From: Mesostigma viride
Taxonomy: Eukaryota > Streptophyta > Mesostigmatophyceae > Mesostigmatales > Mesostigmataceae
Reading direction: 5' to 3'
DNA: 64,000 nt
Assembly (NCBI GenBank): GCA_009746045.1
Contig: RPFO01002347.1
Span: 1-64,000 of the forward strand
The notes below the pieces were generated by a model. It searched no databases and was not told where the DNA came from. It saw only the letters and a list, made by a program, of their open reading frames with translations. The position numbers and the translations under genes were made by a program. Positions 4,531 through 48,580 of this stretch are shown here, in pieces; within the stretch, counting starts at the first letter, position 1; every line of letters starts with the position of its first letter.

Positions 4531-5310
4531 TACTCTGTGGCGGACTTCGGCATCAGCGACGACCCGGTGCGGCCGTCGCCATTCACGCCATCCAAAGCTG
4601 TGTGCGCTATGGAAGAGGGTAGGTCTCTGTCCTTTGACATTGATCCTTCTCTGCAGCAGCTGATCGCTGTGCAGGCTCTCTTAGCGCGTAGCTCTCTTGC
4701 TGATTGCTACACCGCTGATATCTGGCTAGATGGTCGTGTTGGAGCAAGTGCAGGGTGCTGTCTTGACTCCTACTCCAGTCGATTGGACTCCTGCTCAGAA
4801 GGCGACGGAGTTGAACAGGGTGCAGCACAGGGCTGCAACCTATGGTTGGGAAGATGGGGTTTTGTACAAGCTGTTGGGCAAGCGTAGGGTGGTCGTCCCA
4901 CCGCCTGACAAGCGCGTTGCTATAGTGCAGGCGTACCACGAGCGGTATGGTCACTTGGGTGGCAATCGCACGCTCAGCCTCGTACGGACCAGCTATTGGT
5001 GGAATAACATGCGACACACGGTGGCCCAGGTAGTGGCCAGCTGTGTCCCGTGTGCTCGAACCAAGGCTAACTTTAGCGCAGATCATGGTGCCAAGGAGCT
5101 GATGTCGCTTCCCATCAAGGGCTTGTTTTATCGCTGGCACGTCGATCTGTGCGGGCCGTTTCAGGAGAGCCCTGACGGCAACCTCTATGTCATGGTATGC
5201 GTGGAGAGCTTTAGCAAATGGGTTGAGTTGATCCCCATTGCTGACAAGCATGCCGCTACCACAGCGAAGCATTTTGCGGACATCATACCAGGTTTGGGGC
5301 TCCCGCGGAG
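4531..5310 (+). CDS. Integrase N-terminal half (HHCC zinc domain and first catalytic Asp)
   Basis: A linker is read in one frame from about 4537 to 4725, then integrase in another from about 4730. It contains an H2C2 zinc-binding domain (HERYGHLGG...SCVPCARTK, about 4938-5070) and the first catalytic aspartate in WHVDLCGPF (about 5137-5163). The linker contains the peptide SDDPVRPSPF and has no recognised domain. The frame stops at 5314, just after a TTGGGG run, and the DDE core resumes one frame over. This is the RT-RH-IN order expected of gypsy elements. Confidence 0.85.
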
Positions 5311-12443: not shown

Positions 12444-13092
12444 AGTTAGTGAGCAGCCAGAACTGTGAGTTCCTGGTCTCTCACGCCACACAACGGGATG
12501 AGCCAAAGTTGCAAGGCAGCAACCTTTTAACCCGTGCACCAAGCCACGACCACGGTGAGCGGTTCCACGTCCAATGTGGGAGCCTCGGTTCGTGCTTGCC
12601 AAGATAGCTGGTCATCCCCCATGACCAAGCTATATCCTTTGCGTTGTTCCTCGTTCCCATCGGCGTGACGAGGCACGTGCAGGCAGGCAAGCAAATCCTC
12701 AACGTCCACTGGCATCAGTGCAGAGCCAGGACGAACTGGATTTGCCTAGACTCTGCAACCTAGGAAGTACAGGACCTGTCACAAGCCTGCAAGGCAGTAG
12801 TATCCTTGCAGACCTGTGCCAGTTCCTGTAGTCCACCAGTCACAGGCTGCTGCTCCTCTGGTCTACGTGGACCACAGTCACGTGATAGTCAGGCTAAGCC
12901 TGTGCAGGCACGGCCTGCCACGTGTCCTGTCCACTATACCAGAGGACTGCACCTTAGTCAGCCACGGACGGCTAGGACTTCGGGACCTCATATCTTTCTT
13001 GTCCCTTGTCTGTTTCAGGCGGTCAGCACGGCGTTGGAAAGGTCTTTCCAAACTGCATCCACTTAGCATATTGGTTGCCCAAAATGCTAACT
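12444..13092 (-). repeat. E1 3' LTR
   Basis: 649 bp, matching 28763-29409 with a few small differences (e.g. GCCACACA versus ACACACA near 12483; CAGTAG versus CTAG near 12793). Short terminal inverted repeat AGTTAG/CTAACT. Confidence 0.92.
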
Positions 13093-14105: not shown

Positions 14106-15893
14106 CTATGGCCGCCCGTGTAAGGGGTCCATGAGCCCACGGAGCAGGGGGTACTGCCTCTCCGCCTTCTCCTCCAGCTTGGTGAGGGCATCTGCAGGGT
14201 TGTCCACACCAGGCACATGTTTAATGTGAGCTAGGTAGGACATCTCCTTGAGCAACAAGTAGTCAAGGTCCCTGCTCCTGGCCAGCTGCCTGTGCACAAA
14301 TTGCACCATGCCCATGCTATCAGTCCTCACCAGTGTGTGCAGCTGCAACCTACAGGAAGCCACTTGACATAGCTGGTAGAAGAGCTCCCTCAAGTAAAGA
14401 GCAGTATGCAGCCCTTCACAGATTGCCCTGCACTCAGCAATATCACTGCTGGGTGTAACCCTGTTCTGCAACCGACTGTACCAGGTAACAAGTGAGGTGT
14501 GATCTTGCTCCAGGGTAACTAATGCTGCTGCCCTGCCCCTGACCTCTGTGACCTTCCTATTATCCATAGAACTGTCCACATAGAGGACCATGTCAAGGGG
14601 CTTGTACAAATCCACAGGACCCAGTATGAGAGGGGGAGACATCATGACAGCCTGCACCACACTCTCAGCACCCACCTCAACCAGCTGGGAATCAGTAAGT
14701 CGACTCAGAACCAGCAAGTCAGGGGCACATATACTTGCAAGCCATGCCAGCATGCCTCTGATGGTAGCACACCTAGCCTGCGTGATGGGCTCCTGCAATG
14801 CATCTATAATCTGCTGCGGGTAGTCCTTACCACCCTCCATCCTGATGAACCATGAGCCCTTGGCTTGGAACAACGTGGCCTGCATGCCACAGAAGACCAT
14901 AGGCTCATTCTCCACCATGTGCTGTATCTTACCCAGCTCAAACCGCTTCTGGATCTTAGCCAAGACAGCCTCAACCCAGTCTGGTGGACCTATGAGATGC
15001 AGGTCATCACCATGCAGTGAGGCAAAGACAGGAAGGCCATTGTAGGACCCTTGGAACAAACAGGGATCCACTGGAGACACCGAGAACCCACAAGTATTCT
15101 TCAAGAATTTCTCTAGGCTCTTTCTCCAGATAATGGGACTGGACCTGAGACCTTCCAACCCTTTCAGAATTCTCAGGTACCTGGCCTTTATCTCTGCTCT
15201 CCATACAGCAGGTACAGTCACAAAGAAAGGAGGGATATCTCTCCAAGTCTGCCTAGCCTGATCTTGGTCACCCTTGAGAAAAGCCCTCTTGAAATCAATC
15301 AGCACAGAGCTATAGGGCACACCCTTAACCAGAAAAGACAGAAATATACACAGCAGAATCCTCCACGTGTCATGCAGCATCCCTGGAGTGTAGAGCTCCT
15401 CATCTAACAACTGGCCAGTGCCATGATACTCGGTCACAACTGGTCTGACATGTGGCACCTGGACACCATCAACCTCCTTGAGCTTGAGGACAAACATCAA
15501 TCTGAGCAGCTGGTGAACTTCTGGCAGCTCATCCACAGGTTCTGCACAGTTGGAAACTATCCACTCATGCCCAGAAGCAACAAAGCCAAGAGTCCATGCC
15601 TTAGCCATCTTGGGGCTTTGCATCATCTCGACTAGCTGGCGCCAGGGAATAGGACTGTGAGCAGCTATCTGGTACCTGTTTACCCCTAACTGCCTTGGAT
15701 CAAAGGTGGTTGGGATTATCAACAAGTCCTCAGCTATGGGCTCCTGACTCTGAGGACCCTCAGCTGGCTGACTCCTAACAGCCTTCACCGCCACTGCAAG
15801 ACCCTGGGAATAGTGATATCTTTCAAGGGGGAGGCTGCCCCTGCCTTCTAGTGCCAACTCATCAGAGGTCAAAGTAACCCCTGGCATGCACAA
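14106..15893 (-). CDS. E1 reverse transcriptase and RNase H
   Basis: A 595-residue minus-strand frame. RT palm motif A is LIDFKRAFLKG. The motif C box is SLHGDDLHLIG, i.e. HGDD where canonical copia elements have YVDD. RNase H follows with LYVDSSMDN, SSDIAECRAICEG, RTDSMGMVQF and NPADALTKL, the last being the copia-type ADxLTK ending. The N-terminal ~20 residues (CMPGVTLTSDEL) are the end of the protease domain, whose main part is in an overlapping frame. The copia assignment rests on the RT/RH. Frame intact through RT-RH. Confidence 0.9.
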   Translation of the reverse strand: MCMPGVTLTSDELALEGRGSLPLERYHYSQGLAVAVKAVRSQPAEGPQSQEPIAEDLLIIPTTFDPRQLGVNRYQIAAHSPIPWRQLVEMMQSPKMAKAWTLGFVASGHEWIVSNCAEPVDELPEVHQLLRLMFVLKLKEVDGVQVPHVRPVVTEYHGTGQLLDEELYTPGMLHDTWRILLCIFLSFLVKGVPYSSVLIDFKRAFLKGDQDQARQTWRDIPPFFVTVPAVWRAEIKARYLRILKGLEGLRSSPIIWRKSLEKFLKNTCGFSVSPVDPCLFQGSYNGLPVFASLHGDDLHLIGPPDWVEAVLAKIQKRFELGKIQHMVENEPMVFCGMQATLFQAKGSWFIRMEGGKDYPQQIIDALQEPITQARCATIRGMLAWLASICAPDLLVLSRLTDSQLVEVGAESVVQAVMMSPPLILGPVDLYKPLDMVLYVDSSMDNRKVTEVRGRAAALVTLEQDHTSLVTWYSRLQNRVTPSSDIAECRAICEGLHTALYLRELFYQLCQVASCRLQLHTLVRTDSMGMVQFVHRQLARSRDLDYLLLKEMSYLAHIKHVPGVDNPADALTKLEEKAERQYPLLRGLMDPLHGRP

Positions 15894-16312
15894 GAAGTTT
15901 GTCCCAGAATGGCAGGCCCCTTATAGCCCTCTACCACACAGAACGTGGTGGGCACCCCTAAGATAGGCACACTCACTTCCCCAAGGATCTTCATGGACAC
16001 CTTTCCTGAGAAATCAGACACAGCAAGGCAACTGGGATGGGACATCTGTAAGCCTACAGCATCCTCTTCCCTGATGACAGACACCTGTGAGTTGGTATCT
16101 ACCTCCATTGTAGCTGCCCAGCACGACCCCCACCCCGTGAGCTTGGATACCTTGGGATCATGTTTGCTGCGCATGAGTGCTCGGATGACGTCCGCCATGA
16201 GAGGCCCCCGGGCCTTAGGTGGCTGCCCCGTCCCCTCTGGCCTTGTGACAGTTGCTTCAGCAGCCTCCTCCTGCTCGTCATCTTCCAGCAGGGACAGACC
16301 ATCATCCACCAC
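15869..16312 (-). CDS. E1 retropepsin-like protease, located downstream of integrase
   Basis: Active-site-like motif EVDTNSQVSVI (near 16085-16110) precedes SDFSGKVSMKILGEVSVPILG and PAILGQ, which fits the D-T/S-x-A, beta-strand and psi-psi-G pattern of retropepsins. The Gly after Asp-Thr is Asn here. An acidic segment (LLEDDEQEEAAEA) precedes it. It sits between integrase and RT; canonical copia protease lies upstream of integrase. The domain continues into the RT frame after a frameshift near 15890. Confidence 0.75.
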   Translation of the reverse strand: MVDDGLSLLEDDEQEEAAEATVTRPEGTGQPPKARGPLMADVIRALMRSKHDPKVSKLTGWGSCWAATMEVDTNSQVSVIREEDAVGLQMSHPSCLAVSDFSGKVSMKILGEVSVPILGVPTTFCVVEGYKGPAILGQTSCACQGLL

Positions 16313-16329: not shown

Positions 16330-17631
16330 TGCTGCCTGGCTCTGGCCTGGCTCCTCAACCCAGCTGGGAGGGCCTGGCCCGTCTGCAGGCCAGATTGCAT
16401 GTGGCCTTCTTTCCTTGACATGAGCCCAGGACAACCTGTACACGTGCCTTGGATCCTTTTCCAAAGCCACCTGGCAAGATCTGTTAGCTTCTTCCACACG
16501 AGTGACAACCCCATCCTGCCACTTCCCCCGCTTGCCTGGAATAGATGGTTCCTTCCACATCCTGACCTTCAGCCCCACCTGAGGCCTCAGCACATTCCAG
16601 TTCTTGTCCTTACGTCTCAGCTGGGCAAATAACCTATCTGCCTTCCTAAGACTGGCCTGCACCACGTTCTCAGGCATCAAGCTATACTGCAGGGCCAGGG
16701 GAGAGACAGCCACACCATCAAAGTAATAATTAACCCTGTGGTTCAGCTGCATGCTCTTCTATCCCCTTACACCAGGCTGCCCTCTCTAAGGCAGATGCCA
16801 CAAGTGGCACTGACTCTGCTGCTAGCACCACTGTCTTCACTTCACGTATGGATCTCTCTACAGCCCCTTGCTGCCCATGACTCTCCCTGGGGACTACTAC
16901 CAGCTTACAAGGCAGCTGGTCCTGATGCTTGAGCAAACAGTCAAACTGCAAGTCTGCCTGCACACTCTTGCACACCCCAAAGCCTGGGATCAGGGCCTTC
17001 ATACCCAACAACAAGTGGTGCTCCTGCATACCAGGCAGAACGTCTATCAGCCTGTATCTGCTGAACCTGTCCACCCCCACCAATATATACAAGCCCCTGA
17101 TATGCTGGATATCCATCTGGATGTCGCCACGCTCCCTAGCAGGCTCCTAGCATGGGACTGAGGTGGGTGAACAGCATTCTCCTGGCAACCACAGTTCTCA
17201 GCAGCAGCCTGGCATGCCTCCCACAAAGGCTCCCTACCTAGCTTCCAAGCAAACATTGCTGCCTGCCCAGAATGCCCAAACATATGATGCAATCTATGGC
17301 CAGCCTCAGCATAGCTCAGCACTCTGTCAGTACTGACCTGGCGAGACGTCTGAACCGTGTGTGGGGACACATGATCCACTCCTGAGGTTCCAGGGCTTCC
17401 CTGCAGGCCATCCTGACGCCCCAAGCCAGGCCCTGCACCCTGGACCGCTCCAGGCCCTTCCAGCAAGGTCCCTTGGCCCTCCAGGCCAGCACCTGCTGGA
17501 GACCCACCACCTGCATGAGGCATAGGGAATTCAGCTGCAGCATTGTTATTGCAATCCAGTGGAAGAACAACATCTTTACACCCTTGGTGCTGCACAAGGG
17601 GCACACCCCCATCCTTATGTACATCCAACAC
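16330..17631 (-). pseudogene. E1 integrase (frame broken at least twice)
   Basis: From right to left on the minus strand, three frames cover the domain. An HHCC-like zinc domain (HRLHHMFGHSG...CQAAAENCGC) lies near 17200-17320. The catalytic core follows with GLYILVGVDRFSRY, VQADLQFD and QQGAVERSIR (16800-17116). By count 31 residues separate the last Asp and Glu, shorter than the usual 35. The C-terminal domain (VGLKVRMWKE, RGKWQDGVVTRV, about 16450-16560) looks like a GPY/SH3 module rather than the copia integrase tail. Confidence 0.75.
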
Positions 17632-17672: not shown

Positions 17673-19034
17673 CTAGTCACTGCTGCCCAGACTGGCCTCC
17701 CGCCCCAGCAGGCTTGGCCTTCTGTCAGGACACTCACGACGCCAGTGACCTTCCTTGCCACACACAAAGCATGCTCCACCCTTCTTCCCAGACCCAGCCC
17801 CACCCTTGCCAGGCTTCCCCTGGCCTCCCTGAGACTGTCCACCCTGCTTGCCCTGGTTGCCTTGAGCTTGGCCCTTGCCTTGCCCTTGGCCACCCTTACC
17901 CTGCTGACCACCAGCTTGCTGGCTCCCAACCCCTCCTTGGGAACCTGCACCCTTGCCACCCTGAGCCCCCTGCCTCTGGCGCCTGAAGCGCTTACGCTTG
18001 TTGGGCCTTGCCCCATTACGGGCTGGGTACCCGGGGACATCACCTTGGCCCTGCACAGCGGAGGTGGCATTGCTGCCATGGGACTGGATAGCTTTGCAGG
18101 CAGGATCTGGCTTCCTTATGCTGAGGATTACAAGCTCCAGAGCACGCAAGGAGCCATCAGTCTGGTTAAGAAACATGCGGGCACTGTTCCTCCCATCCAC
18201 ACTCAACCCATACGGTCCAGGAAATAATCTGCCAAGGCCCTATCTGTGACCAGGAAGCCATACTTGGCCCCCTTGTCCCTGATACGGTTGAGCCTAGCCC
18301 ATTCCTCTGCCACAGGACCCACTATCTCAAAGGTGTCATACTGATGTTTATAGTAGTTGGTGAGGTTGAGAACCTTGTCAGAGAAATCCTCCCTCAACCC
18401 ATCCAGGAACTGTGCCCAGGTTAGCTTATCCTTGACACCAGTCCTAGCCTTTTCCCTGACACGCTCTGACGAGTCCCTGTTGCACGTGGACGAGTGAAAC
18501 ACTTGCACTAGGTTGACAGTGGGGTCCACGGAGAGCACAACCAGCTCCATGTCCTCTAGCCACTTGTCTAGAGCTTCCTGTGCTAGTGGTGGGTTAAGAG
18601 GCTTTTGTCCATTCATAAGAGTGACTGCACTCATGTGAGGTCTCGACCCTGGCAGCGCTTTCACCGGCTCCACCACAGTGGGTGTCACAGCAACAACGCC
18701 ACTTGGGCCAGCAAGCACAGGGGAGATCACATCCACATGAAGCCTCTTACCATTGCCGTCAGCGGAGGCGTCCCTCTTACGCTTCTCCACGGCTGGTTGC
18801 CCATTCGCCACCGTTATTGCATCAGATGCCCCTAGCGCCCGCGCCTTGCGCGCCTCCTCCACCGAGTCTTCGTGCCGTCTCTTGCTGCCTGGTCTCTTTC
18901 CCCCATCGCCGTCGCTGGCTGGGATCGCCTCCCCCACCAGCTGCTCCTTGTCTTGTCGAGGCTCCTGGCTCGCCCCAGCCGCCGGGTGCCTCCATCTCGC
19001 CCTTGTCGCCGTCTCCCGGTTTGCCACGAGGCAT
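17673..19034 (-). pseudogene. E1 Gag with zinc knuckle (frameshifted)
   Basis: The likely start is the ATG at 19034 (MPRGKPGDGDKG), switching frame near 18960 to a long frame ending at 18203. A further 1-nt shift in ATGGGTTGAG (about 18205) leads to the nucleocapsid. The middle part (LADYFLDRMG, LTNYYKHQYDTFEIV) looks like a copia Gag alpha-helical domain. The C-terminus is Gly/Gln/Lys-rich with CFVCGKEGHWRREC (C-x2-C-x4-H-x4-C) near 17719-17760. It would package element RNA into virus-like particles. Confidence 0.75.
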
Positions 19035-19992: not shown

Positions 19993-20447
19993 AGTTGGAT
20001 GGAGACTAGGGACGACGAACAACTGCGAAAGCTGAGAGCGAATGATGATTGTATTACAATAATACAATGAGAGAGCGATGAAAGCTGAGGGCTCAGAATG
20101 GAACTGGGCAGACTCGGGTGCTGTGGCACTCCCCAGTGCTACGCCTATATGCCTATGGCGGTGCTACCTGCAGCACACGACCAGTGGACAAGTGTACACT
20201 GCAATGCCATGCGACCACGTCACTAGCATCCAGCTAAGACTCGGCCCGTCAGGCCCGGCTACACCGGACCTGGCGGGTCGAGCTAGCACCTAGGAACAGT
20301 CTGGCACTAACCGCACATCGGTCCACATGACACCTCAGTACCGTACACCCTGCCGTACTGTACTGAGGTGTCCCGCTCAGCCGCGGTAGGCAATACGCGG
20401 CGCGCAGGCCGGAAATCCGTGTGTCAGCCTAAGCATCTCATCTAACT
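19993..20447 (-). repeat. E2 3' LTR
   Basis: 455 bp, same length as and apparently identical to 28029-28483. Contains an imperfect inverted repeat near 20330-20372 (GACACCTCAGTACCGTAC ... GTACTGTACTGAGGTGTC) that could form a stem. Confidence 0.93.
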
Positions 20448-21512
20448 CCCATTATGTTTTCCTTTCAGGTTGAAGGCTAGCGACTTCAAGCCTGACCCTG
20501 CCCAGCTAGGAGACTGACTCCAAGCTGACTGAGGTGCTGAGCAACTGACACCCATACTGCAACATCTGGACTGAAAAAGATGGGCCCCAGAACTCGTGCA
20601 ATACTTGTGATGGCATCACGTTTAGCTCAACATGCCCGGGGAGTTCCTCCTCCTCGCGAGCTCACAAGGGAGATAGCTATGCCTGTCTGCCTATCCAGGG
20701 AGTGCACCACCAGCCAAGAGAGCCTTGTAAAAAAATGCCAAGGTAACCGTTTAAGAGGTTCCATGTTGTTCCATCATCATCGCCCACTCAGAGAAAAATA
20801 CCCAGCCAGGCTGGGTCAACTGAGCTCAGGTTACCTGCAACCTGAGGAGTGACAGTGGACAGGTTTATTGCACCCTGCACTGTCCATGTTGTACCTGCAC
20901 AACATGTGAGGACCAGCCACCCCTGCCCTGCACAGAGGGGGCTGAAGTCCGAGTGACAGGTGACAGGACTATGACATCCTGGACCTGGCCACATTGCACC
21001 TGCACAACGTGGGAGACCAGCCACCCCTGCCCTGCACATGGGTGACTGAAGTCCTGGTGACAGGTGACAGGAATATTTCATCCTGCACCTGTGCTGAGCA
21101 CGTTGTACTAGACAACATGACAGCACCCATGCCTTACTGCCACTGAACAGTAAGGCCAGGTGGCCCAGGATATCCACAGTGAACTGGGGTCCTGGGTAAC
21201 CACCTGTCAAGGGAGCTTTGACCCTCCACTTGAATGGGGGCACCTGAGCCACTGAGCTCAAGGCCATTCCACCAAGGCATACGCCCTAGGGAATAAAAGG
21301 TGTGAGATACATCCCATGCCCACCTATGAAGGTGTGCATAACGAAATTCCATGGTGTTGAGAAAATCAAAACAGATTTTATTGGGCATAGGGCACGCAGA
21401 TGTATGAAAAACAGACTCCAACCAACCCCCCTTGCTGGAAGCCACAACCTACCCCTTGGACCTGCCCAAGGGGTACTGGGTGACCTAGGCGGCCCTGGTG
21501 AACAGGACCCTG
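20448..21512 (-). other. E2 3' untranslated region
   Basis: Non-coding. Next to the LTR, on the minus strand, is GAAAGGAAAACATAATGGG, the polypurine tract equivalent. An AATAAAAT occurs near 21372-21385. The same region (in plus orientation) ends E3 at about 59110-59961. It also holds several tandem-like ~80-bp segments (CCTGCACAA..., near 20890, 21000, 21080). Confidence 0.7.
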
Positions 21513-22938
21513 CTAGGCGTCCCCCCTATGGGGCAGGGTTGCCTGCTTGCCATAGGGGTTCATCAAGTGGTACAACAGCTGATATTGTTCAGCTGCCTGC
21601 TGAGGCACTTTAGTGAGTGCATCAGCAGCGTTGTGTTTGTCCTCCACGTGACGGGTGGACTCCCAGTAGGTGGACTCCTGTTTCAGGACCACCCAGTCAA
21701 GATCAGTGTGGACAGCATAGGGGTTAGCAAGGAAACTGAGGACTGACTGACTGTCAGTGAGCAAGTGTGCCACCACCCCAGCATTGCTGCCTGCTTGCAT
21801 CTGCAACCAAACCAGCACATGATTCAAGTACCTGGCATGAAGCACTGCTGACACCACTGCCCTGCACTCAGCAGCATTGCTGCTGACAGCCTTGCGTCTA
21901 TGCAACCGGCTGTACCATGAAATGAGAGACAAGGGTGCATCATCATTCTGCACAAAATACAAGCCTGACTCCCTTGCCTGCACTTGGTAATCTGCCTGGA
22001 CTCCATGGAACTATCCATCATAGCTTGGATGTGAATGGTTTTGTGGAGATCCAAGGAGTGCAAGATAAGGGGAGGGCCTCCTGGAGAGTTTTGGTGATGG
22101 CTTTGTGACCTACTTGCATCAAGACATCATCATCAACTCTGCTAACCACAGCCAGGTGAGGTGCACACGTTGAGCACAACCACCCCAGCTTGCCTCTAAT
22201 GGTAGGACAGGCTCCAGGTTTGATTTTTGTTTGCAAAACCTCCAAGCAGCTGTGCATGTAATCATTGGGAGAGTAGAGTGCACACACCCACTGGTTTTGA
22301 TGCTGCTGGAGTTGTAACATTGTGCCACAAAATTTTATGGCAGTGGTGCCCAGCTCTACTTGCTTGCCAATCTCAAAATGCTGTGACACTTGTTGAATAA
22401 AATCATCCACAGCACGCCTTGGCCCAGCAATCAGCTGATCATCCCCATGCCACACAAAGGTGAGAATGCCATGAGGGTGTGGGACCACAAAGAAGCAAGG
22501 GTCTATGTCATCATATCTAGCCCCTAACTTTTCAAACACAGCCTGAGCTGACATCCTGAAAATGCGAGGAGCTGATTGCAGCCCTTCAACACCTATGTTA
22601 GCTTTCAGGTACTGCTGAGGGATGTGTTTTGCCCAAACTCTGGGAGTGGAGACTACGTACACCTGACCATGCCACACTTGTTGTGCTATCTCAGGTGAGC
22701 CTTTCAGGAAAGCCCTTTTAATGTCTGTAGCCTTACAGATATAGTCATCCCCATCATTGAGATGACCCACAAAGACAGACAGCAAGATTTTTAGGGATGT
22801 TTGCTGAATGCCTGGCGTGTACAACTCTGCCTCTGTCAGATCAGTGGTGCCCTTGAACTCTGTCACACAAGGTCTAGCATGAAAGATGACTGACCCATCT
22901 GCTGCTGGCTTATGTTTACACACAAACTTCAGGCGCAA
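21513..22938 (-). pseudogene. E2 reverse transcriptase and RNase H (two frame breaks)
   Basis: RT motif A CKATDIKRAFLKG and box FVWHGDDQLIAGP (HGDD, near 22435-22460) are in the frame 22938-22018. RNase H is read through two short shifts near 21985-22060 (MMDSSMESR) into 21983-21513, with SSNAAECRAVVSA, LLTDSQSVLSFL and NAADALTKV. It overlaps the preceding frame by ten bases. Close relative of the intact E5 enzyme (40275-42758). Confidence 0.85.
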
Positions 22939-25271
22939 GTGCTTGCACCCTGCAGGCTTTTTGTCAATAGGTGTGACAGGGGAGTATGAGAAGGACTAAG
23001 AGGATCTGGCACTACCCATTCTTCCCTGGCCTTGTTAAAGGCCTCCACCCATTTTAGGAATCCTATGTGTGTGCGACAGTCTTGCTCTATCTGTTCATAA
23101 GAAAGAGGAGACATTTTAGCCACATCATGCTTGCCCAATCCAAATGAGTTGGGATGAAGTTTTTGGTTGTGAACCAGGTCTGCCACACAGGGTTCTTGCC
23201 CTGGGGCATACTTGGGTGTAGCAAATTTTACAGAAGCAATGTTGGTGTTAAGAAGTTTTTCAAGAGAAATTTTGAAATGATTCAGATCAACACCACCCAT
23301 GTCCTGGATGGATAGTCTATCACTGGATATGAGGACACCAGGGTAACAGAGAAAAGGATCCCCCAATAAAGCATTCCCTTTATAACCTTCCAAGACCTGA
23401 AAAGGAGTGGGGATACCGAGTATAGTCAACATGACCTGACCTAATACCTTGAGGGATGACTGCCCTGAGAAATCAGCCACATGGTGCCAGGGTGAAGGTT
23501 CCAAAGGCAAATGGGGCACAGCCAGGGCACTGATAATGCTGACCTGGGCTTGTGTGTCCACTGCAACCATAAATGGGCTATTGTCATTCTGCCCAACCTT
23601 CCCCACCTTAGCTGATCCTGCAGCAGTTTGAGCTTTGGCTCTATGAGCTGCTTGTAAAATGCGAACAGCGTCTGCTAGGCTGCGTTTGGAAGGTGCAGCT
23701 AGTGGCTGAGCTATGTTCACACTTGTAGAGGTGATAGGTTGCTGATCACCTGTTTTGCCAATGTGACCCTCTGCTGCAGGGGGCCAATCCTGCAGTGACT
23801 GCCTGCAATCATCAAGGGTGACCTGGGTGTCACAGTGGGTGTGGCTCTCACACTCACCAGTGGGTGTTCCAAACAACCACTCACTGGGCAACGCTGGGAT
23901 GCCAGGCAACTGTACAGGGCTGTCGGCCAACAGCTCTTCCTCCTCTGCCACGTCTGACACAGTTGGAAAATACAATTTCATCCTGTGAGGTGAACACCTG
24001 TGAATTTTTCCCGTGTCATTGTGTTTAACTAACACTGTCCTGCCAGTGGTGTTAAACTTTAGGATGGTGGCTGGCCCATGCCAGGTACCCACCTTGCCTA
24101 GTCCCGACTCCTTGTAGAATAGGACCTGATCCCCTTCTCTGAAGGTGGGACGTGGATGCTTTGCATCCTTGACAGCTAACCTGCTAGCTGTCTGTGCTCG
24201 CTGTGCGTTGTAGAGGGCTAGTACCTCAGGTGGATAAATGCCTGCATGCAATCCATCTGGTGTAATGACCACCCCTTGTGGGGTTTTCATGAGTGGCCTC
24301 CTGTTGAGGACTTGGCACAACCTGGTGGACCACAGAGCTCTGTCAGCATAGGACCCACTGTCAGCCAGCAGATTGCCATCTTCTTTGGCTACAAGGGTTT
24401 TAATGGACCTGATGGCCCTTTCAATAATGCCTTGCCTCTCATGATCTTCTAGCCCAGCCAGATCAATAGCCTCACACCCTGGTTCATTGGCAAGACATGT
24501 GAACTGCTGATCCAGTAACAATGCCTCCACAGGGTAGTACCTGGCCTGAGCAATCAAGAGAGCCCTGAGCAACTGTGTCTTGTCCATTCCAGGTAATGGT
24601 TCAATGGTTGTGTACCTTGACCATGCATCTTTAAGTGCCAAGTAAGATTGTCCTTTGATATGAAAGACATCTCCTACCACCCTGCCCTTGCTCTTAGGTG
24701 GGGTAGCTACATGCCACTTAGGGGGTTTGGGTGCATTGAACTGACAATGCTGGCAGTGGGATCTGACCACCTGGCATGCACGTCTGAGTGCTGCCCCCCC
24801 TATTGCTGCTGCCACCACCTCTGCACTCACTTCATGCCCATAAAGGAAATGCAACTGCAAAGCAAGCTCCTGAAAACTGATCTGAGCATCCTCTGCTGGG
24901 GACACTCTGCACACCTTGGGAACCATAGATGTGAAGGTTGGTTTAGAGACATAATCTTCTGAAACCAGCTGTAGCACCTTTCCAGAACTGCTCACTGCTC
25001 TGACAGTGGGGCATGCAGAAGAAGAAGGTGAAGCAGGCACACTCAAGCCAGCATGAGAGGGAGACTCACACTTCTTGCCGTAAGGAGGCCGCTTGCAGTC
25101 CTTGGGGTCACCGTGGGGCGGCCCGTGGCACTTGTGGCACAGGACGTCCAAATGCCCCAGCTCGTCCACGTTCTTGCGGCAGGTGGGCCGCAGGTGGTAC
25201 TTCATGCCACAGCGGGTGCACCGCTGAGAAGACTTGTCCTCCTTGTCCTGCTTCTTGTTGTTGTTGTTGTT

Positions 25272-25313
<42 letters not shown>

Positions 25314-26347
25314 ACTGTTGTTGTTGTTGTTGCTGGAGCTGCCCCCCTTGGAGGGAGACTGCCCCTTACCCTTGCCCTTGCCCCAGCCCCTGCCCTTGCC
25401 CTTGCCCTTGCCCTTGCCCTTGCCCTTGCCCTTAAACATTTGTCCCAGCAGGGACTTGACTTCTGCCATAGTGACAGGTCTCTTGCTCCTGTCTTCCCTC
25501 TCCCTATCCTCCTCCTCCCTCTCTTCCCCCCTGACCCTCTTTACAGAGGTGCCCATGGCCCCCTGGCTAAGGGGAGCCAAGGCCAGCTTGATATAATCCA
25601 ATGCCTCCTTCATGTCCTCCCAGTACTTTGCCATTCCTGTTGCAAGCATAGCGTAGGTGTTTTTGTCAAGTTTGAGTTTCTCAAGGAAGGAACGCAGCAA
25701 GAACTTGTGATCTAGCTGCTGGACATCAGGACGTGCTTTGATGGCTAGCTCATATTTCTTTGTCTCAGCCACATAGTCCACTGATGTGACCCTGTATTCC
25801 TCTACCCACCTGAATGCCCCATAGATGTCCACAGATGAGGGGGTGGAGAGGAGGTCAGTTAGCTCCTTCATGAAAGCCTCCCAAACTGCCCTAGCCTGCG
25901 TGTCCTGCCACTTGGGATACCTACGCTGGAAGACAAGAATGAGATTCTGAATCTGAGAAGAGGACTGATGGTAAAATCCCCCTGCATGAGAGATCCAAAC
26001 CAATTCTTGACATTCAGTTCCTCCCTAGCCAGCTGCAGAGAGAGAAGTGCATGATTCCCCTGCTCCCTAGTATACCCCTCAGGCAGCCCCCTGACATTAA
26101 TCCTATCCACAGGACGGTTTTCATTGTAAGTGGGCAACCTAGAGGGGGATGCAGGGGGAGAGGGAGAAGATGGTGTTGCTGCTGCAGCATTCACAGGAGA
26201 GACCTGCTGAGAGGGAAGTGCTACTTGAGTGAGCTGAGCAGGATGGGCAAACATGGGCTGTGTAGGAGGGTTAGACAACATAGGGGTGGGCTGGTGGGGG
26301 TGTGAGTGTGTGTCACTTCCCGCCTCCTGCTGCGGGCCTCCTCCCAA
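22929..26347 (-). CDS. E2 Gag-integrase-protease polyprotein
   Basis: A short N-terminal frame (26347-25868: GLPEGYTREQ) shifts into a 1024-residue frame (26003-22929). Domains in order: Gag helical region; Lys/Gly repeats (25365-25437) and a poly-Asn run (25255-25333); zinc knuckle CTRCGMKYHLRPTC; integrase zinc domain (FLYGHE...CQHC); integrase core with VVGDVFHI, LLLDQQFT and ERQGIIERA (Asp-x29-Glu); a GPY-like tail (VGTWHGPATIL); then retropepsin with AVDTQAQVSII (near 23556) and NALLGDPFL. Integrase precedes protease within one uninterrupted frame, so the order is not a frame-assignment artefact. Confidence 0.88.
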
Positions 26348-27984
26348 TCATGGAAGGTGGGAGAGAGGGACACTTCATCGTCAGTAGGGTTAGTAAGATT
26401 GTGATGCAACCAGGTAGGCAGAGTTAGCCACCTACCCGCCCCTCTCAGGATGGCGTTGTGTAGGAGCTCCAGCAAACGCACCAGACGCACCCTGCTGCCC
26501 TGCACCCTCCTCCCTGAGAGGAGAGCCTGCAGGGCAGGCAGCAGGTCGTCGCACACCCTACGTGTGCCCTCTTGGAGGTTGGGCAGGCCCAGGATGTGCG
26601 TGATGATTGCACACACCAGGCTGCCCGCCTCCGCGACGTGCATCTGCTGGCTCCTGTCGGCCAGCCCACGGAAGGAGGCTGTGGCTGTCTGTATGGCACG
26701 CCACACGGCCTCATCACCAGGGTGATGAAGTCGCGACCTTGCAGGTCGCCCTCCAGCAGTGCTGGTTGCTGCCCAGCTGCGGTGGGACCCTGGGCCCCTC
26801 CGGCCCTGCCAGGGACTTGTCCTTGTTGCGGCTAGAGGGGGCCTGCCCCCCAGAGCCGCTGGAGGTGCCCGTGACACCCTCCATGGGGGCTGCATCCCCC
26901 GCCAGCGCCGGAGGCGCCGGCGTCGCTGCCGGGGTCCCTGCGACCCCGGGCGCTTGTGTCGCCGCCGGGGTCCCTGCGACCCCGGTGGCCTCCTCAGCCA
27001 CCTGGCCCCCCACGCTGGGCGGGGGAGCCTGCGGCTGAGGTTGGACCCTCTGACCTGCCAGAGGGTCCTGGGTGGCTTCACCACCCATGGGCGTGTTGGG
27101 GGCGTCTGCCGCCCCGCGCCCCGTCGCAGGCGGCATCGCAGCCGCCTCACGCCTATCCGGGCCCCAGCCAACTGGCGTGACTTGGGGCCACGCTGGCAAC
27201 GGAGTCAGCGCGATCTCTGGTCTGGAGACCACGCGCAGCGCCTCTCTCTGGCGCTGCCTGGACGCCCACTGATCAACAGTGCCGGGGTTGTGCCTCGGCC
27301 GATTGGCGAAACAGTACAGCCAAACCGCCACCTGAACCAGTGGGAGCTGCATCCTAAGACGCCCCTCGATCAGCGTGCACCCGATGAACCTCTATCGCGT
27401 GTATCTCCTCATCTGGAAGCAACTGAAAACGTTGAGCATGATCCGGCCGTTCACCGCAATGAACGCCGGGATGTCGTCCTCCCCAAGGGGGAGAAAATGG
27501 GGTGGGCGCCCGAACATGACCGGGGGCGGAACATGTTCCCCATACCGGTCAATGTCCATGGTGGCCATCTGTCGGCCCACGGAAAGGTTGCCAGACGTCG
27601 CAGGTGTCTGCGACGAAAGCTCAAGCGAAGGCCGAGGCCTCGCAGGCGGCACCTCGCCATCCTCCTCGGAGGAATCACTCCGCTCACGACCCCCGTCACC
27701 TGCGACGGGGGAACGTCGTGCCCGGGGGACCTGCCCCCCAGGTGCCATGGCGGACGAACCGCCAGTGGCAAACGGCCGCCCGCTCGCCATCCCCCGGGCG
27801 CCGGGCCCCACCTGCGGGCCCCGACGCCTGGGTTGGTCAGCGACCACCGTGCGGAAGGGACGTTGGGCGTCACCCTCGCATCGGTGGTGGAGGGCGTGCC
27901 CTCCGGCGAAAGGCGGGGTGAGGTGCGCCTGGCAGGCGCCTTCCCCTTGTTGTTGTTGCCGTTGTTGCCGTTGTTGGAAGCCAT
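26348..27984 (-). pseudogene. E2 ORF1 (frameshifted)
   Basis: Starts at ATG 27984 (MASNNGNNGNNNKGKAPARR) 45 bp inside the 5' LTR. A run of C near 27862 causes a shift; the continuing frame has SSEEDGEVPPARPRPS and DIDRYGEHVP to about 27392. Further frames carry Pro/Ala-rich repeats (GVAGTPAAT, twice) and a helical region (LLPALQALLSGRR) to about 26350. Its N-terminus is homologous to E3 ORF1, where the same stretch is in a single frame. Function unknown. Confidence 0.65.
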
Positions 27985-28018
27985 ATCTTTTTTTTTTGCT
28001 TAAAAAAAATATCGAACT

Positions 28019-28028
28019 TTTCAGTCCA
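28019..28028 (-). promoter_or_regulatory. E2 primer binding site
   Basis: On the minus strand TGGACTGAAA directly follows the 5' LTR end CCAACT. E3 has the same sequence in the same place (55863-55872). The priming tRNA is not identified. Confidence 0.6.
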
Positions 28029-28483
28029 AGTTGGATGGAGACTAGGGACGACGAACAACTGCGAAAGCTGAGAGCGAATGATGATTGTATTACAATAATA
28101 CAATGAGAGAGCGATGAAAGCTGAGGGCTCAGAATGGAACTGGGCAGACTCGGGTGCTGTGGCACTCCCCAGTGCTACGCCTATATGCCTATGGCGGTGC
28201 TACCTGCAGCACACGACCAGTGGACAAGTGTACACTGCAATGCCATGCGACCACGTCACTAGCATCCAGCTAAGACTCGGCCCGTCAGGCCCGGCTACAC
28301 CGGACCTGGCGGGTCGAGCTAGCACCTAGGAACAGTCTGGCACTAACCGCACATCGGTCCACATGACACCTCAGTACCGTACACCCTGCCGTACTGTACT
28401 GAGGTGTCCCGCTCAGCCGCGGTAGGCAATACGCGGCGCGCAGGCCGGAAATCCGTGTGTCAGCCTAAGCATCTCATCTAACT
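28029..28483 (-). repeat. E2 5' LTR
   Basis: 455 bp, apparently identical to 19993-20447; followed by TSD CCTGG. Confidence 0.93.
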
Positions 28484-28762: not shown

Positions 28763-29409
28763 AGTTAGTGAGCAGCCAGAACTGTGAGTTCCTGGTCTCT
28801 CACACACACAACGGGATGAGCCAAAGTTGCAAGGCAGCAACCTTTTAACCCGTGCACCAAGCCACGACCACGGTGAGCGGTTCCACGTCCAATGTGGGAG
28901 CCTCGGTTCGTGCTTGCCAAGATAGCTGGTCATCCCCCATGACCAAGCTATATCCTTTGCGTTGTTCCTCGTTCCCATCGGCGTGACGAGGCACGTGCAG
29001 GCAGGCAAGCAAATCCTCAACGTCCACTGGCATCAGTGCAGAGCCAGGACGAACTGGATTTGCCTAGACTCTGCAACCTAGGAAGTACAGGACCTGTCAC
29101 AAGCCTGCAAGGCCTAGTATCCTTGCAGACCTGTGCCAGTTCCTGTAGTCCACCAGTCACAGGCTGCTGCTCCTCTGGTCTACGTGGACCACAGTCACGT
29201 GATAGTCAGGCTAAGCCTGTGCAGGCACGGCCTGCCACGTGTCCTGTCCACTATACCAGAGGACTGCACCTTAGTCAGCCACGGACGGCTAGGACTTCGG
29301 GACCTCATATCTTTCTTGTCCCTTGTCTGTTTCAGGCGGTCAGCACGGCGTTGGAAAGGTCTTTCCAAACTGCATCCACTTAGCATATTGGTTGCCCAAA
29401 ATGCTAACT
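28763..29409 (-). repeat. E1 5' LTR
   Basis: 647 bp, AGTTAG...CTAACT, matching 12444-13092; followed on the right by TSD ATGGT and the resumed Y2 repeat of element Q (29415-29466). Confidence 0.92.
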
Positions 29410-39378: not shown

Positions 39379-39899
39379 AGTTATGGCACTCGTGCAATGG
39401 ATGCGAACGTGTGTTGGATTATGCAATGGCTGGCATAATATCAATCCATGCAAGCTTGCCAAGCTGGATTGCATGGGCACGTAGGTTAGGGTAACCTAGC
39501 TATCCTGCACTAGTGCTAACCAATGAGATGCTGGCTCCGTCCAGCTAGATCTACTCCAGCTAGGACTGATACGATGCCCACAGGAACCGACTGCCTAACA
39601 GCACTACGTGGATGGTCCTGGACCTCCCCTAGGACCTCCGTACAGGACTAGCACTGCAACCACCTTGTGGTCTGCATCACAGCTCATAAACCCTACCACG
39701 TGAATACCCACGTGCGTGTGCCCTACATATCTCAGTGCTAATATCTAGCACCCACGTGCCCAATATGGCACGTGCGGATCTAAACCCTAGTAGAGATATG
39801 TCCAGTGTACTACACCACCGTCCATGTCCGTATCTTACTTGGGAGACGGGGACAACGCCACGTGTACTGATAGTCTAGGCCTGAAGTCCAAGAATAACT
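39379..39899 (-). repeat. E5 3' LTR
   Basis: 521 bp; differs from 46629-47149 at three visible positions (near 39529, 39575 and 39890). Confidence 0.94.
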
Positions 39900-40274
39900 C
39901 CCATTATTACTTTTCTTTGGGGAGTGAGGGGAAGACTCTTCCCACAACCCACTCATATGCCAACCACTACGAATAAGCAAGGTTCCCCACAGGGACAACC
40001 AGGACACTGAAAGAGATGCATTTATAAAAGCGCCCATAGCTCCTCCGTGTTGGATACAACATCCCCACTGGTTGGGTGCCTGTGTTAGGAAAACCATTGT
40101 CAGAAAAATATGACCACACGTTTTATTGACAAAGAACAAGCCATCAATAAAGGAGGACCCTTCTGACCTCAATCTTTAATGACGCAAAGAGAGTCTTACG
40201 GGTGGGACACTTCAGACCCTGCCACCCCATGACCACCCTCCTATCTGGTGCTAATATCCCTAGGCTGAGGCACT
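39900..40274 (-). other. E5 3' UTR and polypurine tract
   Basis: Non-coding. On the minus strand CCCCAAAGAAAAGTAATAATGGG immediately precedes the LTR, in the same position as CATAATGGG in E2 and E3. Confidence 0.7.
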
Positions 40275-42758
40275 TCACCCTCTGCCGTTATATGGGTTCA
40301 TCAGCGTGTATAGGACTCTGTACTGAGGCCCTGCAGCCTGTGGCACTTTTGTGAGTGCATCTGCTGCATTGTCAGGGTCTCGGATGTGAGTCTTGGACTC
40401 CAGATAGGTACACTCCTGCTTGAGGACAATCCAGTCCAAATCGGTGTGCACAGCCAAGGGGTTGTCCAGGAAAGAAAGAAGGGATTGACTGTCAGTCAGC
40501 AGGTGGGATTTGACACCAGCATAACTACCAGCCTGATGCTGCAACCACACCAGCAGATGGTTCAAATACCTGGCATGCAACACAGCTGATACCACAGCAC
40601 GGCATTCTGCTACATTGCTGCTGACTGCCTTGCGCTTGTGGAGTCTGCTGAACCAGGAAACCAAAGATTGCTTGCCAGTGGGGTTAGACAACATAAATAG
40701 CCCTGCCTCTCTGGCTTGTACTTTAGTGACTACCCGTGACTCCATGGAACTGTCCATCATGCATGTGATGTGGATGGGTTGGAACAGATCCAAAGCATGA
40801 AGAATAAGGGGAGGGCCATCATGCAACACCTGTTTAATAGCCCTAGACCCTACCTCCATGAGGACATCATCATCCACTCTGCTGACCACTGCCAGGTGAG
40901 GAGCACAAGTGGCACACAGCCAACCTAGCTTACCCCTAATAGTGGGACAGAGATCAGGAGTGATGTCAGAGGGAAGAACATCTTTGCAAGACATGACATA
41001 CTCAGGGGAGGCTTTGAGAGAACACACCCACTCCTTCTGCTCCTTAAACAGGTTCAGAATGATGCCACAGAACTTGACAGGATCTTTTCCCAGCTCCAGC
41101 TGCTTGCCTAATTCAAAGCTAGCAGACACTTGAGCAACGAAATCCTCCACAGCTGCCCTGGGACCAGTAATGAGCTGATCATCCCCATGCCACACAAACA
41201 TCATCATGCCAGCAGGATGAGGAATGGTGAAGAAACAAGGGTCAATATCATCACACTGGGCCCCCAGCTTCAGGAAGACCTCTTGGGCAGACAGCCTAAA
41301 AATTTTAGGTGCTGACTGAAGCCCTTCTACCCCCAAGTTAGGCCTTAGATGAGGTTCCTTGATGTCCCCAGACCAGACTTTGGGAGTGTTGACCACATAG
41401 ACTTGACCCCTCCACACCTTTTGGGCTATGTCAGGGTTGCCTTTAAGGAAGGCACGCTTAATGTCAGTGGCTTTACACACGTAGTCCTTGCCAGCATTCA
41501 GATGGTGAAGGAAAGTTGCCAACAGGACCTTAAGAGACGTCTGCTGAATACCAGGGGTATACAGTTCAGCCTCTGTTAGCTCAGTGGAGCCCCTGAACTC
41601 CGTGACACAAGGTCTGGCATGAAAAATGGGAGGTGTCCCATCTGCCTGGGGTTTATGCTTGCAGACAAACTTCAGTCTGAGCTTTCTGGCCCCTTGTGGC
41701 AGTGCCTCAATCGGTGTTACAGGTGGTACCTGGGACTTACTACGTGGATCAGGACAAACCCATTCCTCTCTAGCCCTGTTAAAGGCTTCCATCCATTTCA
41801 GAAAACCAATCTGCGTTTGACAGTCTTTGACCACATCATCATAGGACAAGGGAGACATGGACGCAATGTCCCATCTACCAAGCCCAAACGCAGAGGGGTG
41901 TAGCTTCTGGGAATGAATGAGGGAATCAACACAGGGTTCCTGACCTGGGAGGTATTTTATATTGACAGCGTTGATGGCTGCTTCCAGGCCATCACTGATC
42001 TGTGTTAAAGGAATTTTGAAATGGTCCAGGGTGACCTGCCCCACCCCAGTCACACTCAACCTCCCAGCTGAGATGACTACTCCAGGGTATGAGACAAATG
42101 GTTCCCCCAGCAGTGCATTCCCCTTGTAGCCCTCTACTACCTGGAAGGGAGTGGGCACACCCAGAATGGGAATTAGCACTTGGCCTTTGACTGCCATTTT
42201 TGTTTTGCCTGAAAAATCTGACACTCTAGCCCAGCGCGAGCGTTGCAGACTTAGGCCAGATACAGCTTGTGCACTGATGATGCTCACCTGTGCCTGTGTG
42301 TCTACTGCCAGGATACTGGGATCCTGGTTAGATTCACCCACAGCATTGACTTGTGCTGCACCTGCTGCCATTTGTGCCTTGGCAGTGTGTGCTCTATGTA
42401 GAGCTTTTAGAGCCTCAGCAAATTTATTCCTGGGGACAACAGGATCTGCTGCTTCGCGTGGCTGTTCCTGAGATGAGGGAGGAGCGACCTGCTGCTCATC
42501 CAGTGCACGTTCCTCCTGCCCAGTTGGACCAGTGGGCTGTGGTGGGGCTGCACCACTGAGGAACACAGGAGCGTCTATGGTTGTGTTGCTTGCATCAGCT
42601 ATGTCCCTAGCCAATTCACTGGGTGAGACCAACCCACCAGACTGAGGCTCTGAATCCATGTCCAAGAATTCTACCCCTGACACGTCTGCCAAAGGAGGGT
42701 AATAAAGCTTCAGTCTATGCTTGCCAACCATTCGCTCTCTGTGATGCTGAATAGTCAC
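40275..42758 (-). CDS. E5 protease-reverse transcriptase-RNase H
   Basis: An intact 827-codon minus-strand frame. The first ~40 residues (HRERMVGKHRLKLYYPP) are the integrase tail. Retropepsin follows at about residues 150-240: LAVDTQAQVSIIS, SDFSGKTKMAVKGQVLIPIL, NALLGEPFVSYPG. RT: KATDIKRAFLKG, EGLQSAPKIFRL, MMFVWHGDDQLITGP (HGDD). RNase H: MMDSSMESR, NVAECRAVVSAVL, LLTDSQSLLSFL, NAADALTKV near the stop. Protease and RT share one unbroken frame downstream of integrase. The enzyme should process the polyprotein and make cDNA in virus-like particles. Confidence 0.93.
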   Translation of the reverse strand: MTIQHHRERMVGKHRLKLYYPPLADVSGVEFLDMDSEPQSGGLVSPSELARDIADASNTTIDAPVFLSGAAPPQPTGPTGQEERALDEQQVAPPSSQEQPREAADPVVPRNKFAEALKALHRAHTAKAQMAAGAAQVNAVGESNQDPSILAVDTQAQVSIISAQAVSGLSLQRSRWARVSDFSGKTKMAVKGQVLIPILGVPTPFQVVEGYKGNALLGEPFVSYPGVVISAGRLSVTGVGQVTLDHFKIPLTQISDGLEAAINAVNIKYLPGQEPCVDSLIHSQKLHPSAFGLGRWDIASMSPLSYDDVVKDCQTQIGFLKWMEAFNRAREEWVCPDPRSKSQVPPVTPIEALPQGARKLRLKFVCKHKPQADGTPPIFHARPCVTEFRGSTELTEAELYTPGIQQTSLKVLLATFLHHLNAGKDYVCKATDIKRAFLKGNPDIAQKVWRGQVYVVNTPKVWSGDIKEPHLRPNLGVEGLQSAPKIFRLSAQEVFLKLGAQCDDIDPCFFTIPHPAGMMMFVWHGDDQLITGPRAAVEDFVAQVSASFELGKQLELGKDPVKFCGIILNLFKEQKEWVCSLKASPEYVMSCKDVLPSDITPDLCPTIRGKLGWLCATCAPHLAVVSRVDDDVLMEVGSRAIKQVLHDGPPLILHALDLFQPIHITCMMDSSMESRVVTKVQAREAGLFMLSNPTGKQSLVSWFSRLHKRKAVSSNVAECRAVVSAVLHARYLNHLLVWLQHQAGSYAGVKSHLLTDSQSLLSFLDNPLAVHTDLDWIVLKQECTYLESKTHIRDPDNAADALTKVPQAAGPQYRVLYTLMNPYNGRG

Positions 42759-43969
42759 CGTGTCCCTGTTTCTGAGAACCTGATGATTTCAGCTGGACCA
42801 TGCCATCTACCAGAGTGGGCTTTGTTCCCTTCCCCTTCCCTATAGTAGAGTACCTGATCCCCCACTTCAAACACAGGCCTGGCATTACTCTTATCCTTTT
42901 TTGCCAGCAACTTGGCCAAGTGTTGCCTCTGCGTGTTGTAGTGGTCTAGTACCTCCTGAGAGTAGCTGCCTGATTGCAGGCCAATTGGTGTGATTTCACC
43001 AAAAGGAGAAGACATGAGGGACTTGGTGTTCAGAGTTCTGCACACTTCAGCTGCCCACGCTGTCCTATCAGCATAGCTCCCAGACTCTGCTGTCCTGGAC
43101 TCATTTTTCTTTATGAGGTCTCTGATAGCACGCATGGTACGTTCAATCATCCCCTGGCGTTCATGATCTTGAGCCCCAGCAATGTCTATCTTGGGCAGAT
43201 CAGGATAATCTTGTATCCACGTGAACTGCTGATCCAGCATTAATTTTTCCTGAGGATGATACCGTGCTAGTGCAATCAGCAGGGCTCTGTGCAGTTGTTC
43301 ATTGGCCATGCCTGGCAAGGGTTCTATCACCACAAACCTAGACCAGGCATCTTTTAGGACCAAGTAATACACCATGTCCTTCACCAGGTGTATCACATCC
43401 CCTACTAGCTTTCCTCTAGCCAGTGGTGGGGTGGCCACATGCCATCTCTTGGGTTTAGGTGCATGCAGTTGGCACGCTTCACAGTGCTTCCTGACATGCC
43501 TGCACATCTGTTCCAGGTCACGGCCATCAATTTTATTAGCCAGCCTTTCTGCCACTGCCTCATGCCCCATTGCCTTGTGTAGCTGTTGGGCTAACCTGGC
43601 ATAGGATATAACCTTATCTGCTGCTGCATCTAAGGAGGCTATAGTGGGATCTTGGGCCACCTGTGCTAACGTCATGTCATAAGCCAGGTCCCAATCCACT
43701 TCCTCACTGTCAGGCAACACAGAGCAAATAGAAGGTACACGGCCATTGAGAAACCAGGGTACAGGAGACTTACAGTCGTCCTGAGTGCTGGCTTGTTTGT
43801 TGGGGCGCCCCGTTGAGGCTCCCTTCCTGGGCTTGTTGCAGCGTCCCCCTGCAGGTAACGGGTGGCGGGGCTCCCAGCAACCTGGGCATACATCCACATC
43901 AGATCCAAGTTCGGGTTTGCCCTTCCAGCAATCATCCCTCTCATGCCCTTGCATGAGCACCTGGTGCAA
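42755..43969 (-). CDS. E5 zinc knuckle and integrase
   Basis: 404 codons. The zinc knuckle CTRCSCKGHERDDC spans the start of this frame (43925-43965). A second Cys cluster CPGCWEPRHPLPAGGRC follows. Integrase zinc domain: LHKAMGHEA...CRHVRKHCEAC. Core: KLVGDVIHL, KLMLDQQFT, ERQGMIERTMR; 29 residues by count separate the second Asp and the Glu. The tail has VGDQVLYYREG and GRWHGPAEIIRF, a GPY-like module usual in gypsy integrases. The frame ends in a 4-bp overlap with the protease-RT frame, and homology continues across it, so the break is a 1-nt shift. Confidence 0.88.
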   Translation of the reverse strand: MHQVLMQGHERDDCWKGKPELGSDVDVCPGCWEPRHPLPAGGRCNKPRKGASTGRPNKQASTQDDCKSPVPWFLNGRVPSICSVLPDSEEVDWDLAYDMTLAQVAQDPTIASLDAAADKVISYARLAQQLHKAMGHEAVAERLANKIDGRDLEQMCRHVRKHCEACQLHAPKPKRWHVATPPLARGKLVGDVIHLVKDMVYYLVLKDAWSRFVVIEPLPGMANEQLHRALLIALARYHPQEKLMLDQQFTWIQDYPDLPKIDIAGAQDHERQGMIERTMRAIRDLIKKNESRTAESGSYADRTAWAAEVCRTLNTKSLMSSPFGEITPIGLQSGSYSQEVLDHYNTQRQHLAKLLAKKDKSNARPVFEVGDQVLYYREGEGNKAHSGRWHGPAEIIRFSETGTR

Positions 43970-45615: not shown

Positions 45616-45724
45616 GGCCGCGTCCAGCCGCGCCTGATGCCGCCGGGTCTTCTCCGTGGCATCGTGCGCCTTCGCACGAAGTCGCCGCAGCTCCCGATGC
45701 TGCGCCTCCCTGGCTGCACGCTCC

Positions 45725-46579: not shown

Positions 46580-46628
46580 TTTAAAATGAGAGAGTAGTAT
46601 TAAAACTGTGAGAGTTTTTATAAATGCA

Positions 46629-47149
46629 AGTTATGGCACTCGTGCAATGGATGCGAACGTGTGTTGGATTATGCAATGGCTGGCATAATATCAATCCATG
46701 CAAGCTTGCCAAGCTGGATTGCATGGGCACGTAGGTTAGGGTAACCTAGCTATCCTGCACTAGTGCTAACCAATGAGATTCTGGCTCCGTCCAGCTAGAT
46801 CTACTCCAGCTAGGACTGATACGATGCCCACAGGCACCGACTGCCTAACAGCACTACGTGGATGGTCCTGGACCTCCCCTAGGACCTCCGTACAGGACTA
46901 GCACTGCAACCACCTTGTGGTCTGCATCACAGCTCATAAACCCTACCACGTGAATACCCACGTGCGTGTGCCCTACATATCTCAGTGCTAATATCTAGCA
47001 CCCACGTGCCCAATATGGCACGTGCGGATCTAAACCCTAGTAGAGATATGTCCAGTGTACTACACCACCGTCCATGTCCGTATCTTACTTGGGAGACGGG
47101 GACAACGCCACGTGTACTGATAGTCTAGGCCTGAAGTCCTAGAATAACT
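46629..47149 (-). repeat. E5 5' LTR
   Basis: 521 bp, AGTT...AACT ends; followed by TSD CATGT and the continuing LINE 3' UTR. Confidence 0.94.
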
Positions 47150-48337: not shown

Positions 48338-48549
48338 ATGGATGGATGGATGGATGGATGGATGGATGGATGGATGGATGGATGGATGGATGGATGGATG
48401 GATGGATGGATGGATGGATGGATGGATGGATGGATGGATGGATGGATGGATGGATGGATGGATGGATGGATGGATGGATGGATGGATGGATGGATGGATG
48501 GATGGATGGATGGATGGATGGATGGATGGATGGATGGATGGATGGATGG

Positions 48550-48550: not shown

Positions 48551-48580
<30 letters not shown>

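Follow-up and report, generated by a model that had tools for sequence, protein, structure and literature searches.

An unexpected feature of the 64,000 nucleotides of Mesostigma viride analysed here (assembly GCA_009746045.1, contig RPFO01002347.1, positions 1 to 64,000; hereafter the window) is a group of long terminal repeat (LTR) retrotransposons in which the integrase (IN) is encoded upstream of the protease (PR). Three elements of the window, designated E2, E5 and E1, all read gag, CCHC zinc knuckle, IN, PR, reverse transcriptase (RT) and RNase H (RH). Very probably these are autonomous LTR retrotransposons, together with decayed or non-autonomous relatives, of an M. viride lineage characterised by the order gag-IN-PR-RT-RH, and the explanation that we favour includes this order as an inherited trait of the lineage. 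The domain order of pol is one of the main characters used for sorting LTR retrotransposons. The host is a streptophyte alga, not a chlorophyte as an earlier note, made from the letters of the window alone, had assumed. The window is crowded with nested LTR elements, E2 being inserted into E1, and the parts of the three elements, with their target-site duplications (TSDs), are as follows.

19993–28483, minus strand: E2, whole LTR element, nested in E1; TSD CCTGG; LTRs AGTT..AACT
28029–28483, minus strand: E2 5' LTR, 455 bp
19993–20447, minus strand: E2 3' LTR
22932–26024, minus strand: E2 gag-knuckle-IN-PR frame, 1,031 codons from stop to stop
25179–25220, minus strand: E2 CCHC zinc knuckle CTRCGMKYHLRPTC, pattern read directly, no Pfam knuckle match
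23955–24899, minus strand: E2 integrase; HHCC from about 24851, catalytic Asp 24671, Asp 24512 and Glu 24422; rve match 0.0044
within 23955–24899, minus strand: E2 integrase C-terminal domain, SH3-like, with WHGPA
23235–23579, minus strand: E2 retropepsin-like domain, VDTQAQVSII at 23561, NALLGDPFL; fold modelled on the E5 copy
22018–22995, minus strand: E2 RT frame; RVT_2 match 1.7e-10, motif HGDD
21552–21986, minus strand: E2 RH piece
39379–47149, minus strand: E5, whole LTR element; TSD CATGT; LTRs of 521 bp
44242–45798, minus strand: E5 gag frame
42758–43981, minus strand: E5 frame with the end of the knuckle and IN; rve match 2.5e-4
41973–42323, minus strand: E5 retropepsin-like domain, VDTQAQVSII at 42305
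40278–42788, minus strand: E5 PR-RT-RH frame, 837 codons
12444–29409, minus strand: E1, LTR element interrupted by E2; LTRs 12444–13092 and 28763–29409; TSD ATGGC/ATGGT
17730–17771, minus strand: E1 zinc knuckle CFVCGKEGHWRREC; zf-CCHC match 1.5e-6
16733–17146, minus strand: E1 integrase core piece
15872–16114, minus strand: E1 retropepsin-like piece, VDTNSQVSVI...AILG; no Pfam match
14109–15920, minus strand: E1 RT-RH frame

The earlier note had described a single E2 frame with a knuckle, an integrase and only then a retropepsin, and this is borne out, as an HHCC-DDE integrase precedes VDTQAQVSII...NALLGDPFL. The frame is indeed unbroken, while the length of 1,024 codons given for it counts from a leucine codon inside the longer stop-to-stop frame. 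The RT of E2 follows after a frame change and lies outside this frame, and gag extends further upstream in a different one. The arrangements proposed for the other two elements were likewise recovered: E5 carries PR and RT in one frame downstream of the IN frame, and E1, its frames broken, shows the same succession from the knuckle over IN and PR to RT-RH. A second protease upstream of IN was also considered and rejected, as a scan for the motif D[TS][GAQNS][AST] between the knuckle and the first catalytic Asp gave no match in the three minus-strand frames of E1, E2 and E5.

Copies were sought throughout the assembly (439.9 Mb, 2,243 contigs). Five families with the new order are distinguished, namely E1, E2, E5, F82 (82% identical to the E5 family) and P0001 (42% identical to E5), and IN precedes PR in all of them. 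The PR-RT-RH region of E5, used as query, gave 54 scored places among 8,647 candidates, and the 15 distinct E5-type or F82 loci examined (E5 included) all possess IN, PR, RT and RH in order on one strand; gag is also found upstream in each of the 10 longer stretches. In L009 a single open frame, 2,110 codons long, spans gag, IN, PR, RT and RH. For the P0001 family, 70 places were scored, each with a printed identity of 100% (69 with equal score), and IN lies upstream of PR in 19 of the 20 loci examined. Its RT piece alone is 99.4% identical in 19 of 20 loci. The locus L039 carries IN-PR-RT-RH in a single frame of 1,224 codons. A further sequence, P0002, is nearly identical to E2 over the integrase end, PR and the start of RT.

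With the gag-IN-PR region of E2 as query, which does not include RT, 45 copies were scored among 16,674 candidates; IN and PR lie within one match in every copy, 43 of them stop-free, and gag is a separate, adjacent piece in three. Both limits of the E2 frame are common to 15 of the 45, the window copy included, so that the frame breaks have probably been propagated with the copies, with trans-mobilisation, recoding or duplication of a segment as candidate routes. The same observation disfavours sequencing errors as their origin.

In a window full of nested elements, with broken frames in E1, E2 and E5, an order of this kind could be thought to result from nested insertions, assembly errors or damaged frames. 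This was already refuted by the single open frames of L009 and L039 and by the agreement of dozens of copies on different contigs, which leave it a vanishingly small probability. The occurrence of one order at many places in divergent families excludes chance, nesting and misassembly. The placement of IN before PR is genuine and inherited, and it is widespread across this genome.

The reverse transcriptase links these elements to Copia. A canonical Copia element in the same window served as internal control:

49159–55103, plus strand: E6, canonical Copia element

E6 has the order PR-IN-RT-RH, ends in TGTTGG..CCAACA and contains the expected Pfam modules. Its LTRs are 99.9% identical, and its protease motif, LDSAASSH, is also without the glycine of DTG. 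The RVT_2 matches of E2 (1.7e-10) and E5 (4e-8) are above the cut-off, and no match to the gypsy-type RVT_1 was obtained at E<=1 in E1, E2 or E5. Comparison by hhalign of the RT-RH region with E6 gave a probability of 96.9 (E 1.8e-10), as against 2.5 with gypsy. On an RT tree of 248 columns, with 11 canonical Copia rows (about four families) from the same genome and gypsy as outgroup, the five families group together as a clade (99/100), which a branch 4.6 changes per column in length sets apart from canonical Copia. Judged by such comparisons, RT-RH is Copia-related. Thus the term “Copia-like” used in the earlier note holds for RT-RH, and it does not hold for the order, the LTR termini or the protease motif. 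Searches of PDB sequences with PR-RT-RH, PR and RT-RH returned either nothing or chance matches.

LTR pairs were found in 12 elements; 11 have the ends AGTT..AACT, and 10 of those are flanked by a perfect 5-bp TSD, while in E1 four of the five bases match. No LTR pair was found in the stretches containing L009 and L014–L016. One further element of the window is related to E2 by its LTRs:

55433–62057, plus strand: E4, no coding match found; LTRs AGTT..AACT; TSD CCCAT

E4 is situated in an LTR of the E1 type, the uninterrupted form of which is present at 12618 and after, and comparison with that form bears out the two ends and the 5-bp duplication. The insertions of E2, E5 and E1 look young because their LTR pairs differ by 0 mismatches in 455 bp, 3 in 521 bp, and 2, with 2 further gap columns, in 649 positions, respectively. 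On the primer-binding side, inside the 5' LTR, the sequences are TGCATTAAAAACTC in F82, TGCATT(T/A)ATAAAAACTC in the E5 type and TGGACTGAAA in E2 and E4. A search of E1, E2 and E5 revealed no self-primer.

The integrases of E2, E5 and F82 possess both the HHCC motif and the DDE triad. The core piece of E1 has DDE, its HHCC being irregular and in another frame, and P0001 has HHCC but a D-D-D core. The catalytic residues of IN are thus conserved in four of five families, and those of RT and RH are conserved; P0002 aligned falsely and was omitted from the IN alignment. The P0001 family is multi-copy and nearly identical despite Asp as the third acid. A Foldseek search with the IN model gave 36 matches at E<=0.001, and all among the 50 matches listed are retroviral integrases; an IN profile matched 28 PDB sequences (E 0.085–1.2), every one a retroviral Pol or integrase chain. 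In a VIA comparison of the IN model, the top rows are Tudor/SH3 domains, covering the C-terminal domain alone.

E2, E5 and F82 carry W-H-G-P-A at the IN C-terminus, which we take to resemble the GPY/F module, and this is one of several observations in favour of a chimera, in which Copia RT-RH has been joined to the IN-PR block of another LTR lineage, gypsy- or retrovirus-like. The SH3/Tudor fold of that domain in the E2 model would fit such an origin, as would a weak resemblance of PR to gag-asp_proteas of Pfam. The modules Pol_BBD, gag_pre-integrs and SH3_retrovirus, typical of Copia and found in E6, were not reported for the new-order elements, where divergence may hide them. However, comparing the IN and PR profiles with the gypsy and Copia elements of the window gave no significant result in either direction, and we rate a chimera as less likely than not.

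In place of DTGA, the protease domain carries DTQA or DTNS, and every one of the five families has either DTQ or DTN. Invariant residues among the families are V-D-T, the V-S that follows it and the LG of ALLG/AILG. The domain modelled from E5 resembles retropepsins: all among the 50 VIA matches listed are retropepsins or Ddi1, and Asp46 superposes on Asp25 of HIV in this low-confidence model. A different fold for the post-integrase domain thus found no support from the modelling. Between E2 and E5, the proportion of synonymous differences (pS) is saturated (0.69–0.79), and the proportion of non-synonymous differences (pN) is 0.35 in IN, 0.29 in PR, 0.22 in RT and 0.19 in RH, and reaches 0.48 in the IN-PR linker, from which we infer that PR is under selection while the linker drifts.

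Several observations weigh against a lineage of autonomous elements with this order. Regarding structure, gag and IN are separated by about 4.9 kb in L016, no IN was seen in one P0001-family locus (L036), and L040 has an improper right (3') LTR end and no TSD. Regarding RT, the RVT_2 match of E1 (4.6e-5) is below the cut-off, P0001 gave no Pfam match, an RT-RH profile found nothing among PDB sequences, and the tree is drawn from one genome and has long branches, for which the program issued a warning. As to the integrase, its rve matches are below the Pfam cut-off, none of the PDB profile matches reaches significance by itself, the fold model has a predicted local distance difference test score (pLDDT) of 47.5 and a predicted template-modelling score (pTM) of 0.36, its Foldseek TM-scores are just 0.14–0.26, and the third catalytic acid is Asp instead of Glu in 19 of 19 P0001-family loci with IN (L019–L038). 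For the protease, the D[T/S]G motif is absent, Pfam matches are below the cut-off in E5 (0.008) and E2 (0.044) and were not obtained for E1 or P0002, a PR profile found nothing among PDB sequences, and the fold model of the E5 copy has a mean pLDDT of 49.8, a pTM of 0.47 and a best Foldseek E of 0.18. Since the glycine of DTG is replaced by Gln or Asn, protease activity of the post-integrase domain is uncertain.

That replacement in all five families, together with the weak fold model and profile matches, could indicate that the domain is a degenerate, non-catalytic retropepsin remnant, with processing performed by another protease or not at all. We think this unlikely, as V-D-T, V-S and LG have stayed invariant in five families while the IN-PR linker drifts, and the families with the domain have many near-identical copies. 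Also, E6, a canonical Copia element with near-identical LTRs, does without the glycine, which therefore may be dispensable here.

If the new-order elements are autonomous, as we favour, an RNA reaching from LTR to LTR would be translated into a gag-pol polyprotein, and the retropepsin between IN and RT-RH would cut it inside gag particles. After priming, the Copia-type RT-RH would synthesise the DNA copy, and the three-domain integrase, acting on the AGTT..AACT ends, would insert it at staggered cuts 5 bp apart and so confer mobility. The order may have arisen when PR and IN changed places in a Copia-like ancestor; alternatively, a retropepsin inserted before RT may have replaced the upstream PR.

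In these elements, as in Ty1/copia, a homologous RT-RH occupies the 3' end, IN is encoded upstream of RT, and the TSD measures 5 bp. They differ in having IN-PR rather than PR-IN and AGTT..AACT rather than TG..CA, and because order and TG..CA ends were tested and not found, we do not file them as plain Copia. The order of Ty3/gypsy, PR-RT-RH-IN, is not that observed, as IN here precedes PR-RT-RH, nor is RT of the gypsy type. The integrase of Petunia vein clearing virus is reported to lie upstream of gag, which places it likewise upstream of the protease. In the passages of Llorens 2009 available to us, that virus represents one of five int positions, the others being downstream of pr (all known Copia, and Gmr1), downstream of rh, truncated reverse, and lost; a position between gag and protease, where it is found here (in one frame in L009), is not on this list. 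Gmr1, in the same passages, is also a lineage marked by a reshuffled pol order; however, it belongs to gypsy and has int downstream of pr, whereas int is here upstream of pr and RT is of the Copia type. Troyka, as described in part of Kojima 2025 (PMC12440569), is likewise a separate LTR lineage flagged by unusual termini, but it has CG..CG ends and 3-bp TSDs and is proposed to belong beside gypsy and its kin, in contrast to AG..CT, 5-bp TSDs and a Copia-type RT.

The earlier note's proposal of a possible new lineage is supported, as the order lies outside those five positions and marks a clade on the one-genome RT tree. The LTR ends with their 5-bp TSDs and the DTQA/DTNS motif, two features that the earlier note had overlooked, lend the proposal further support. 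Together these results suggest a previously unrecognised branch of LTR retrotransposons. That gag-IN-PR-RT-RH, AGTT..AACT and a DTQ/DTN retropepsin together define a lineage at superfamily level, sister to Copia or deep beside it, is a tentative reading to which we give somewhat less than even weight. A limited literature search and passages of PMC2774666 and PMC6317226 did not reveal a description of gag-IN-PR-RT-RH. One M. viride genome paper counts 60,339 LTR retroelements in the part available to us, and the word “copia” is absent from the main text of both genome papers for this species. Two protein searches with these elements (about 8,000 candidates each) retrieved Mesostigma viride models only, and a third, with the E2 IN-PR region, scored 7,994 candidates without a match at E<=1. 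Searches for relatives in viral contigs, and of PHROGs and NCBIfam, yielded nothing useful.

A 2019 plant survey, in the passages at hand, discarded elements of unexpected order as likely mispredictions, so that lineages of this kind could be filtered out. If the lineage is of superfamily rank, classifiers that assume a fixed order and TG..CA ends would miss it. In this streptophyte alga the lineage is present in many copies, with LTRs that are identical or almost so, which suggests a working order and turns pol rearrangement, integrase recognition of LTR ends and the requirement for the DTG glycine into testable questions.

Other parts of the window are also of interest. DNA methyltransferase-bearing retrotransposons are reported from dinoflagellates and charophytes according to the portion of PMC5890265 available, which does not name Mesostigma in its main text. 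A gypsy-type element at 324–4663 and beyond carries a C5 DNA methylase domain (PF00145, 8.3e-12) between protease and RT. Five tandem units of 314 bp occupy 60179–61796 in the 3' LTR region of E4, and an array of 8-bp tandem repeats is located at 48289–48721.

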